Source of the DNA: Desulfobacterales bacterium
Lineage (GTDB): Bacteria; Desulfobacterota; Desulfobacteria; Desulfobacterales; Desulfobacteraceae
Assembly: GCA_022361395.1 (NCBI GenBank)
Contig: JAKSAX010000434.1
Span: 1 to 50,800, forward strand
DNA: 50,800 nucleotides
Direction: 5' to 3'
The notes under the pieces were generated by a model that searched no databases, had not been told where the DNA came from, and was given only the letters and a program-made list of their open reading frames with translations. This document shows positions 4,199-49,778 of the stretch, piece after piece. Within the stretch, counting starts at the first letter, position 1. Every line of letters starts with the position of its first letter. The position numbers and the translations under genes are program-made.

Positions 4199-4597
4199 CT
4201 ATTTTTCATCCACGGGAAATTTGGCTCTGAACCATTCCCGCCACCCCCCTTTCAGGGCATGGACATCGGTAAACCCGTATGAGGCAAGTTTTTGTGCCAG
4301 ACCGGCACTTGTGTATTCATTGGGTCAGGCGCAGTAAATGACCAGCTTCCGGTCTTTCGGAAAATTGGCCTTCCAGTCGGAAACTTTCCGGGGATCGGCC
4401 CGGTGAGCGCCTTTTATTTTAAATTCGGATGAGCTCCAGTCCCTTCCGCGGCGGGCATCCAGAACAGTGACGGAGCCGTTGTCCATCCAGTCTTTCACGG
4501 TCTCTTTGGACACCACGGAAGTTGATGCCGCGCCTGAATAGGAGGCAGCCAGGAAAATGGCGAACAGAGGGATGAGAATCAGTAAAAATTTTTTCAT
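4199..4597 (-). CDS. exported rhodanese-like protein with UGA (selenocysteine) at the catalytic position
   Basis: Read through one in-frame UGA (4325-4327, residue 91) this is a 132-residue protein. It has a signal peptide (KKFLLILIPLFAIFLAASYSGAA) and one rhodanese domain: VLDARRGRDW, then VIYCA-U-PNEYTSAGLA, and a terminal GGWREWF. Rhodaneses of this type normally read YCACPNEATSA, and the UGA falls exactly on the second, catalytic Cys. The 41 residues after UGA keep the family pattern to the TAG stop, so this is not decay. A hairpin with loop GGUCU follows (4294-4308). The start has AAAGGAGTTCAC before ATG, and the permease stop TAA overlaps this leader, so the two genes are co-transcribed. 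A periplasmic persulfide or selenium/thiol-transfer role is inferred. A nonsense mutation is the alternative. Confidence 0.88.
4294..4308 (-). promoter_or_regulatory. candidate bacterial SECIS hairpin in the exported rhodanese mRNA
   Basis: Five base pairs (GUGCC with GGCAC) close the five-base loop GGUCU. Twenty-one bases separate the UGA at 4325-4327 from the first loop G. Bacterial SECIS elements lie within the coding region just after UGA, and the E. coli fdhF element has an apical loop containing GGUCU whose G and U contact SelB. The match in loop sequence and distance is direct. Function is inferred. Confidence 0.75.
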
Positions 4598-47245: not shown

Positions 47246-48493
47246 ATGAACACAGACGTAAAGGTCCTGGGGATTAACGGACTGGGAAGAATCGGGAAAC
47301 TATCCCTGTGGCACCATGCAGGCAGAAAATACTTTGATGAGATTGTCATTAATGTGGGCAGGGAGGTAGGCTCTTCCATGGATGATATTGTCCACTATAT
47401 CGAGCGTGACTCCTCCTACGGGCGCCTGGAGGCCTTTCTTAACGGGTACCAGGGTAAACCCGTGATCACGGATGTGGATCTTGAGGCCTTTACCCTGAAT
47501 GTAAACGGGGTCAGGGTAAAGATCCTTAAAAACAACCGGAACCCCAAAGATATTGAATGGGCGGACAACAACGTGGATATCGTTGTGGATACCACAGGCC
47601 AGTTCCTGGACCCCAACCTGAGCGCAGACGATCCAAAGGGATCCATCCGCGGCCACCTGGATGCAGGGGCCCGGAAGGTTATTGCCTCGGCGCCCTTTAA
47701 GCTCAAACAGGGCGCGGTCATGCCTGAGGATTCCGTGACAACGGTCATGGGGATCAATGACAAGGTTTACGATCCGGTTGCGCACTGCCTGGTCTCCAAC
47801 GCTTCCTGCACCACCACCTGCCTCTCCCATATGGTAAAGCCCCTGCTGGATGCATTCGGCATAGAGCGGGTGCTCTCCGCATCCATGGCAACGGTGCATG
47901 CGGCCACAGGATCACAGCAGGTCCTGGACCGCCTGCCTAAAACCGGTGCTTCGGACCTGAGAAAGAACCGGTCCATACTGAACAACATTATCTTGACGAC
48001 CACAGGGGCGGCCAAGGCCCTGCAGCTGGTCATCCCGGAAATGGGAACCATCGGCTTCATTGCCGAGTCCGTGCGGATTCCCACCTCCACGGGCTCCCTG
48101 ATCATCCTGGTGATGAACTTCCAGGAAGAGCTGAATAAAAAGCCCATCCGCAGGGAAATGATCAATCAGATCTACCAGGATGCGGCAGCCGCAAACGACA
48201 ACGGCTACCTGGTGTACACGGATAAGCAGAACGTATCCTCGGATATCATCGGCACCCCAAGGGCGGCAGCCGTGATTGAGGGGCATGAAACCCACACCCG
48301 TACCGGTGCCATCAATATCAACCTGGAACAGGTCAGGGGCATTGACAAAGAGGTGCTTGAAACCATAAAAGACCATGTGGGCAGCATCCAGGTCACCCAG
48401 TCCGTTATTTACGGATGGTACGACAACGAGATGGCCTCCTATGTGAACATGATGGGGGATCGCACGGTATCCATTGCTGAATCCATGGAATAA
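47246..48493 (+). CDS. glyceraldehyde-3-phosphate dehydrogenase-like protein, long form
   Basis: 415 residues, about 80 more than usual GAPDH. The NAD-binding start is VLGINGLGRIGKLSLW, the catalytic Cys188 lies in SNASCTTTCL, and later motifs are TVHAATGSQQVLDRLPK, ILTTTGAAKAL, RIPTSTGSLIILV and WYDNEMASYVNMM. The active-site Cys is some 36 residues later than in standard enzymes, so extra sequence lies in the N-terminal NAD domain. The His partner of Cys appears in ATVHAATGSQ. AAGGA precedes the ATG. It follows the PPDK-like gene by 27 bases and probably shares its transcript. Glycolytic or gluconeogenic oxidation/reduction of GAP is expected, with a different aldehyde substrate as the alternative. 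Confidence 0.9.
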   Translation: MNTDVKVLGINGLGRIGKLSLWHHAGRKYFDEIVINVGREVGSSMDDIVHYIERDSSYGRLEAFLNGYQGKPVITDVDLEAFTLNVNGVRVKILKNNRNPKDIEWADNNVDIVVDTTGQFLDPNLSADDPKGSIRGHLDAGARKVIASAPFKLKQGAVMPEDSVTTVMGINDKVYDPVAHCLVSNASCTTTCLSHMVKPLLDAFGIERVLSASMATVHAATGSQQVLDRLPKTGASDLRKNRSILNNIILTTTGAAKALQLVIPEMGTIGFIAESVRIPTSTGSLIILVMNFQEELNKKPIRREMINQIYQDAAAANDNGYLVYTDKQNVSSDIIGTPRAAAVIEGHETHTRTGAININLEQVRGIDKEVLETIKDHVGSIQVTQSVIYGWYDNEMASYVNMMGDRTVSIAESME

Positions 48494-49325
48494 ATCAGTA
48501 TTGTTTTTCTGCCGGCATCTGGCAGCTGTTCTAGCTGTCTGTGCCGGCAGCCTGTTCCTCTGCACCGGCGGGGCATCTGCAAGGGATATCCCCTTTCAGC
48601 CGGGGGAGGAGGTCAAATACGATGTCCGGTGGCAGATGTACAAGGCCGGAGAGGCGCAGATCCAGGTGATGCCCTTTACCGAAGTTAAGGGAAGGCGCTC
48701 CTATCATTTTCAGTTCCGGGCCCAATCCAACGCCTTTATAGACAAACTCTTCAAGGTCAGGGACAGTGCTGAAGGTTTTGTGGCTGATGATTTCTCAGGG
48801 TCGACCGGGTATGAGTACAGGGGGGAGGGGAAGAAAAAAAAGGAGATCCGGGTGGATTTCTTTCCCGATACAAATAGGGTTGTCTATTCCAATTTTGACG
48901 AGCCCCGTAAGCCCCTTGAAATCCCGGAGGGCTGTTTTGACCCGGTCTCCTCGTATTTTAAGATGCGGCTAATGGACCTGGAGGTCGGCCAGACCCTGTC
49001 ATTCCCCATTACAGACGGGAAAAAGTATTTTTTCCAAAAGGGCGAAATAGTAAAAAAAGAGAAGATCACCATTAAATCGGTTGCCTACGATACCGTTGTG
49101 GTGGTGCCCCATGTCACCCATTTTTCAGGGGTGTTTAAAGAGAGCAAAGATCCCACGGTCCGGGTCTGGCTTACTGATGACGAAAGGCAGATCCCGGTCC
49201 GGATCAAGATTCGTATTGCAGTGGGCAGTATTTACTTTGATTTAAGCTCATACAAGCCCGGTAAACCGGCATCCCCGCCCCCGGCCAACGGCGGGTATGT
49301 TCACGGCGGTATCCTCTATCTTTAA
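48474..49325 (+). CDS. DUF3108-domain secreted protein
   Basis: About 283 residues. A signal peptide (FFCRHLAAVLAVCAGSLFLCTGGASA) leads into a beta-rich DUF3108 domain (FQPGEEVKYDVRWQMYKAGEAQIQVMP, YHFQFRAQSNAFIDKLFKVRDSAEGFVA, DPVRVWLT-type end with QIPVRIKIRIAVGSIYFDL). The start is uncertain. TTG at 48474 overlaps GAPDH by 20 bases and gives a positively charged n-region, while TTG at 48501 avoids the overlap; neither has a clear ribosome site. DUF3108 proteins are periplasmic or outer-membrane-associated and of unknown function. Its stop codon shares three bases with the stop of the convergent Sec-rhodanese gene (49322-49325). Confidence 0.72.
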   Translation: MLNPWNKSVLFFCRHLAAVLAVCAGSLFLCTGGASARDIPFQPGEEVKYDVRWQMYKAGEAQIQVMPFTEVKGRRSYHFQFRAQSNAFIDKLFKVRDSAEGFVADDFSGSTGYEYRGEGKKKKEIRVDFFPDTNRVVYSNFDEPRKPLEIPEGCFDPVSSYFKMRLMDLEVGQTLSFPITDGKKYFFQKGEIVKKEKITIKSVAYDTVVVVPHVTHFSGVFKESKDPTVRVWLTDDERQIPVRIKIRIAVGSIYFDLSSYKPGKPASPPPANGGYVHGGILYL

Positions 49326-49639
49326 AGTATGGTAAGACCGGTCTCTTTCCAGCCGGAAATTCCCCTGTCCAGCACCCGGGCACTGGTATATCCCTCTTCT
49401 GTGTATTGAACGGCAAGACCTGCCGCTGAGCTGTCGCCGGGTCAGCCTCAGTAAAAAATGATATCCGTATCTTTATCAAGATCCGGCTTCATCCTTAAGA
49501 ATTCGCTCATTGGGATTGCGCCTTCCAGGTGGGCCTGGCTGTGGAATTTATCGTCGTCATATATGCAGACCAGAAGGGAGAGGCCTGCGTCGATCCGGGA
49601 TTTCGCCTCCGGTGCCGGTATCCGTTTTGCTGTTGCCAT
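49322..49639 (-). CDS. cytoplasmic rhodanese-like protein with two UGA codons in the active-site motif (U-G-U-P)
   Basis: Read through UGA at 49448-49450 and 49442-49444 this is a 105-residue rhodanese domain without signal peptide. It starts PAPEAKSRIDAGLSLLVCIY and has FHSQAHLEGAIPMSEF, the strand DIIFY, the loop U64-G-U66-P-GDSSAAGLAV, and VLDRGISGWKETG before TAA. The usual motif is YCxCPxxxSSA, so U64 replaces the first and U66 the catalytic Cys. Forty or so residues after the UGAs keep the family pattern, which argues against decay. A hairpin with loop GGUCU follows at the same distance from the second UGA as in the other UGA-rhodanese. RBS AAAGGAGTTCACT is nearly identical to that of the paralog. 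Two Sec in one active site is unusual. Function is unknown, with selenium or persulfide transfer inferred. Confidence 0.88.
49411..49425 (-). promoter_or_regulatory. candidate bacterial SECIS hairpin in the double-UGA rhodanese mRNA
   Basis: CGGCA pairs with UGCCG around loop GGUCU (49416-49420). Twenty-one bases separate the second UGA (49442-49444) from the loop, and 27 separate the first. The stem-loop geometry and loop are the same as at 4294-4308 although the stems differ in sequence, a compensatory pattern that supports an RNA structure. Confidence 0.75.
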
Positions 49640-49778
49640 AGTGAACTCCTTTTTAAAATTGACAATAATCTCAAGCTAAGCACGAATTGCCGTCAGGCAA
49701 ATCAGGATTAGGATTGTAAACGTCGGGATTCGGGTGTAAAAATGAATAAGGAGAACCCATAACCGAGGAAGGAAGGCA

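Follow-up and report, generated by a model that had tools for sequence, protein, structure and literature searches.

A Candidate Double-Selenocysteine Rhodanese from Desulfobacteraceae with Strong Comparative Support

The DNA analyzed here, referred to as the window, is a stretch of 50,800 nt from a Desulfobacterales bacterium (Desulfobacteraceae; assembly GCA_022361395.1, contig JAKSAX010000434.1, positions 1–50,800 of the forward strand). Close to its end the minus strand carries a gene for a single-domain rhodanese (49322–49639), which starts with ATG at 49639, ends with TAA at 49324–49322, and is preceded at a distance of 6 nt by AGGAG (49646–49650), a likely ribosome-binding site. By translating this frame we confirmed what an earlier sequence-only reading had described, namely, two in-frame UGA codons (49450–49448 and 49444–49442) followed by an open frame up to the TAA. 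With UGA read as selenocysteine (Sec) the product has 105 residues with Sec at positions 64 and 66, whereas translation table 11 yields an ORF of 63 residues, so that ordinary gene calling would cut the gene exactly as that reading had anticipated. The assignment of the sequence beyond the UGA codons to a rhodanese also held, because the match to the Pfam family Rhodanese (PF00581, E = 9.5e-10, 39.3 bits against a cut-off of 22.2) covers residues 11–99 and therefore spans both UGA codons. On the plus strand, a convergent ORF of 283 residues with a TTG start (48474–49325) overlaps with its end the stop codon of the rhodanese gene; a relative of this ORF occupies the same place in 2 of 15 loci from named public records (L046, L047). 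The window contains a second rhodanese gene (4199–4597, minus strand) with one in-frame UGA (4327–4325), a signal-peptide-like start, and the motif VIYCAUPNEYTSAG. This second protein is likely a Cys-x-Sec selenoprotein.

Two TGA codons in one frame could also be explained by a genome-wide reassignment of UGA to an amino acid. This idea is contradicted by the window itself, where 12 of the 29 non-overlapping ORFs of at least 200 codons terminate at TGA, and it is equally at odds with the presence of a tRNA-Sec gene (selC) with anticodon TCA in the same genome. We give reassignment practically no credence. The other machinery genes named in the sequence-only reading, selA, selB (354 bits against a cut-off of 242), and selD, are all present in this assembly, which is 95.68% complete with 8.89% contamination. 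Two selD genes score above the family cut-off (L155, G000:C487:3818-4741; L156, G000:C534:2299-3225) and each contains one in-frame TGA, so that SelD looks like a selenoprotein itself, in two copies. In the family as a whole, 77 of 86 genomes have a selB gene. Among the 22 genomes with a Sec-Gly-Sec (UGU) rhodanese, one (G065, 78% complete) has no selB and another (G072) has only a match below the cut-off; among the seven genomes with another Sec-x-Sec (UxU) form, five carry selB, and the two without it (G186 and G218) are 70 and 72% complete. Since selB is nearly universal in the family, its co-occurrence does not single out the carriers of the double-UGA gene.

Exactly two in-frame TGA codons within the rhodanese match occur in 22 of the 86 same-family genomes, that of the window included, which argues against a chance event. 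The proteins from the other 21 genomes are 60–77% identical to the window protein, and five of them come from single-contig genomes. The gene was also located in named public records, at 15 loci that belong to Desulfobacula, Desulfospira joergensenii DSM 10085, Desulfotignum, and to records titled only Desulfobacteraceae or Proteobacteria. All 21 distinct full-length UGU sequences share the motif F-Y-U-G-U. Median dN/dS is 0.13 upstream of the UGA codons and 0.18 downstream, or 0.15 when the hairpin codons discussed below are left out; saturated pairs were removed beforehand, which left 124, 185, and 102 of 210 pairs for the three regions. The coding stretch after the UGA codons is thus under purifying selection.

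These data bear directly on the possibility that there is no selenoprotein at this locus, and that the UGA codons simply end a 63-residue protein or reflect a pseudogene or an assembly error. The ORF defined by table 11 is compatible with this possibility, as is one relative (L034, G079:C993:8725-8874) that retains only about the first 53 residues before it diverges, either as a truncated gene or because of an assembly fault. On the other hand, the recurrence of the double TGA in 22 of 86 genomes and the dN/dS values after the UGA codons led us to reject a pseudogene as well as a sequencing error, and the codons of the downstream hairpin lack synonymous variation. We therefore judge a non-selenoprotein origin of the double UGA to be very improbable. 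In three relatives (L025, L026, L029) a further in-frame UGA follows the C-terminus of the rhodanese, with a few residues left before a TAA. This extra codon is probably the normal stop, in which case UGA seems to have two meanings within these genes, Sec and stop.

The surroundings of the gene offer no functional lead, since the neighborhood is not conserved. Across the 15 named loci and the window, several of them on short contigs, no conservation was found beyond close relatives. The largest cluster of neighbors is present in 6 of 16 loci, at varying positions and on varying strands. The two genes downstream in the window recur in 5 of 16 loci, and each of the two flanking genes does so in 3 of 16 (window counted); for genes adjacent to the rhodanese gene in the window, this adjacency is kept at no more than 4 of the 15 named loci. 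A search for plasmid matches at E = 1e-10 gave none.

To place the double-UGA gene among its relatives, we ran profile searches at the level of the order (389 genomes), the class (389, for the most part identical with those of the order), and the phylum (395), with E-value cut-offs of 1e-8 or 1e-14. Together with the family and named-record loci, these searches provided 107 distinct domains, 99 of which were included in a tree computed without the motif columns. Five domains were left out as short or truncated (L030, L034, L036, L099, L129) and three because they are of the FYCGG type (L035, L037, L038). The 99 rows comprise 68 Cys-x-Sec (CxU), 28 Sec-x-Sec, two Cys-x-Cys, and one Cys-x-Asn motif, and no Sec-x-Cys; in these counts Cys-x-Cys forms are under-sampled, because the searches were seeded with Sec forms and limited by these E-values, and only part of the listed matches was taken. 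TGA at codon 66 is accordingly found in 96 of 99 domains. The sequence-only reading had placed the two UGA codons at the Cys positions of a "usual YCxCP" motif. Homologues with Cys opposite the UGA codons do exist, with Cys at residue 64 in 71 of 99 rows and at both positions in two, so that the positional part of this statement stands; "usual" does not fit, since YCxCP is rare in a sample where 68 of 99 relatives are Cys-x-Sec.

The 28 Sec-x-Sec rows consist of 21 UGU, five UAU, one USU, and one UTU. All UGU rows form one clade (100/99) nested among CxU rows. Mapped onto the tree, the UxU state requires seven changes (7–7 over bootstraps), at least four of which are forced by starred branches. 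The alignment behind the tree has 102 columns, and 27 of the 96 inner branches are open; counts of changes do not distinguish gain from loss. The data reject a single UxU clade both for all 28 rows (p = 4.1e-5) and for the 24 rows with a cysteine at position 25 (p = 0.008). In all 68 CxU rows residue 64 is encoded by TGC or TGT, one base away from TGA. As none of the 99 rows is Sec-x-Cys, residue 66 was probably the first to become Sec. The absence of this form and the fact that CxU is the commonest state likewise favor gain of the second Sec over loss. The UTU protein (L139) represents a further Sec-x-Sec case, here with the D-V-R motif usual in rhodanese.

Next, we looked for the RNA signal that Sec insertion would require. 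RNAalifold, applied separately to the 21 UGU, the seven other UxU, and the 68 CxU genes, placed a hairpin at the same site, within nt 15–33 after UGA66. In the window this hairpin lies within the coding region at 49409–49427 on the minus strand, with the apical loop GGUCU at 49420–49416. A strict scan of the window gene found a 6-bp stem with the 7-nt loop AGGUCUU and a folding energy of −10.5 kcal/mol; the distance to the start of the loop is 20 nt from UGA66 and 26 nt from UGA64. The limits for bacterial SECIS elements given in PMC13188914 are a loop of 3–9 nt, a stem of 4–16 bp, G within the first two loop positions, a distance of 16–37 nt from the UGA, and a minimum free energy of at most −7.5 kcal/mol. 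The window hairpin falls within these limits, as do about 30% of background codons (328 of 1089 and 134 of 462), which marks the criteria as permissive. Measured from both UGA codons, the hairpins of 17 of 21 UGU genes and 7 of 7 other UxU genes lie inside the limits (24 of 28 double-UGA genes), and the remaining four UGU genes fall short of the energy limit at −6.7 kcal/mol. At codon 66, 63 of 68 CxU genes lie inside the limits. Neither of the two Cys-x-Cys relatives does so at either codon, and the single Cys-x-Asn row does, although its motif lacks a UGA.

More telling than fold stability is the behavior of individual codons. Five codons located +8 to +12 from UGA64, GCG GCA GGT CTT GCC, each show a synonymous homozygosity of 1.00 across the 21 UGU genes, compared to expected values of 0.24–0.33 (counted among rows with the majority residue at each position). 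Most codons that flank these frozen five vary about as expected. Row-wise synonymous shuffling gave mean z-scores for the hairpin of −0.94 for UGU, −2.03 for other UxU, and −1.54 for CxU genes. For UGU the gain in stability over the shuffles is slight, with 1 of 21 single rows below 0.05, and the shuffle contrast for the alifold consensus is inflated because rows were shuffled independently. A plain fold of 52 nt from the window gene was not unusual (z = −0.30). Position-wise codon freezing is therefore the stronger evidence for the hairpin. Rfam scans of the window and the gene region returned no SECIS and one snoRNA match below threshold (19.1 against 45 bits), which we took as chance. The Rfam model SECIS_1 found no match in the genome of the window, nor in 14 control genomes, which makes its silence here uninformative.

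On these grounds one conserved SECIS-like hairpin can plausibly serve both UGA codons. Another way to read the motif is that only UGA66 is reliably decoded as Sec, with UGA64 leading mostly to termination or to another amino acid, and that the pair acts as a regulatory brake responding to how much selenium is available. Recoding twice in close succession should indeed lower the yield, and in the CxU relatives the partner of the hairpin is UGA66. This proposal sits poorly with the codon usage at position 64, which is TGA in 21 of 21 UGU genes and TGC or TGT in none, with the scattered distribution of UxU outside any single clade, and with the spacing of UGA64, which also lies within the SECIS limits. 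We regard such a brake as improbable.

The reading that we prefer is that the window gene is a genuine selenoprotein gene with both UGA codons decoded as Sec, giving a Sec64-Gly-Sec66 active site descended from Cys-x-Sec rhodaneses. On the comparative evidence we hold this to be highly probable, and the two-Sec interpretation of the earlier reading is thereby supported. Selenium would take the place of sulfur at two neighboring positions in the active site of a small enzyme from sulfate reducers. In the scenario that we infer, the hairpin would already have served UGA66 in a Cys-x-Sec ancestor, and a single change from TGC or TGT to TGA at the active-site Cys64 would have introduced the second Sec by using this existing element, one hairpin within the spacing limits of both codons now serving both. 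Other lineages would have gained the second Sec independently by the same one-base step. A pre-existing SECIS for UGA66, which makes a second Sec a one-base step, would be the simplest account of the repeated appearance of UxU.

We then turned to the question as to what such a protein might do. A structure model from the single sequence was poor (pLDDT 53.4), and we therefore used a model based on an alignment of 64 rows (pLDDT 89.7). Its best matches are chains with rhodanese fold, with the sulfurtransferase GlpE at the top. In alignments, the counterpart of residue 64 is the active-site Cys in both GlpE and the rhodanese-fold structure 6mxv. Of the 99 relatives, 98 have Cys or Sec at position 66. 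A further conserved feature is Cys25 (codon at 49565–49567, minus strand), located at or beside the Asp of the usual rhodanese D-V-R. All 71 rows of the Cys25-type clade contain this residue, which is the sole Cys in 20 of 21 UGU proteins. In a phmmer pair alignment with GlpE, Cys25 falls on the Asp of D-V-R. In the family alignment it precedes by one position the column that holds Asp in 27 of the 28 other rows; the notion that Cys25 replaces this Asp fails there and finds support only in the GlpE pair alignment.

From this residue pattern we propose a thiol/selenol oxidoreductase built on a rhodanese scaffold, and not a classical thiosulfate:cyanide sulfurtransferase, an assignment that we favor over sulfur transfer with moderate confidence. 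Sec64 would be the nucleophile that attacks a sulfane sulfur, a polysulfide, or an oxidized thiol, Sec66 would resolve the product as a diselenide with Sec64, and the invariant Cys25, usually the lone Cys, may take part as the third redox residue, by which the bond is handed on. A serious if less probable option is a double-Sec protein that functions as a classical sulfur or selenium transferase, with a deliverable perselenide on Sec64 and a purely tuning role for Sec66. The complete rhodanese fold, the best match to GlpE, and the location of residue 64 at the active-site Cys are all consistent with transfer chemistry, although a common fold shows no function. The near-invariance of Cys or Sec at the +2 position together with the lack of Sec-x-Cys is more than a transferase with one nucleophile seems to need, and the fixation of Cys25 while the adjacent D-V-R was lost likewise seems to go beyond the needs of such an enzyme.

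How does the oxidoreductase candidate relate to known selenoproteins? The closest described type is the CxU rhodanese with one Sec, listed as form 3 and covered by the NCBIfam family NF041203, rhodanese_LYCAU (PMC13188914). Like this family, the window protein consists of one rhodanese domain in which Sec stands two positions downstream of the site of the active-site Cys. Unlike it, the window protein scores 41.6 bits against a cut-off of 115, contains Cys25, lacks D-V-R, and has a second Sec at position 64. Three UAU proteins, L102 (G186), L103 (G218), and L104 (G195), pass this cut-off with 140–154 bits and have the hairpin placed as in the window gene, although PMC13188914 gives NF041203 one Sec. 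A fourth UAU protein (L097) stays below the cut-off at 71 bits. Since three UAU proteins pass while L097 and the window protein fail, the UxU motif occurs both inside the named family and in a sister group that has no name.

The other rhodanese-like forms in the text of PMC13188914 (1, 2, 4, and 5) have the motifs UxxS, UxxG, UxxG, and UxxxxU, and the last one contains two Sec. This is TsoB, a rhodanese/DsbD fusion (NF045694), which resembles the window protein as a rhodanese-related protein with two Sec (PMC13188914) and differs from it in the spacing of the Sec residues and in its fused model of 572 positions, on which the window protein reaches 12.7 bits (cut-off 805). GlpE from E. coli (1gmx) has Cys instead of Sec at the active site and an active-site loop that is two residues shorter in the phmmer alignment. 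Outside the rhodaneses, UxxU motifs have been described in a Prx-like protein (PMC2398784) and in SELENOW (PMC7539508). These two and a diselenide-motif family share with the window protein a pair of closely spaced Sec residues in a redox motif, and SELENOW is a precedent for a change from CxxU to UxxU; in all three, however, two residues separate the Sec, and none is a rhodanese. Thioredoxin-like folds are common to these three groups, the last of which we take to be SelL.

A search of the literature on UxU or two-selenocysteine rhodaneses found no UxU rhodanese, with supplements and some key papers, which may list one, lying outside its range. The term UxU does not occur in the main texts of PMC13188914 and PMC9312934, with tables covered in part. 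At least 31 selenocysteine proteins have been reported for D. autotrophicum HRM2, some of which are identified by name solely in a supplementary table (PMC2702500), and it is possible that this supplement already lists a UxU rhodanese. Within the parts of the literature searched, we found no description for rhodaneses of a chemistry that combines an internal diselenide with a lone Cys.

Taken as a group, the UxU rhodaneses may represent a subfamily in which one hairpin serves two UGA codons six bases apart, the second Sec arose repeatedly by point changes on a pre-existing SECIS, and an internal diselenide cooperates with a lone Cys; judging from the sequences compared here, we give this combined proposal a little better than an even chance. 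With CxU cousins beside UxU members and an RNA signal in a fixed place, these proteins amount to a natural, repeated experiment on gaining a second selenocysteine. Whether one bacterial SECIS can serve two UGA codons, and what selenium adds at the catalytic position of a rhodanese, would thereby become accessible to experiment.
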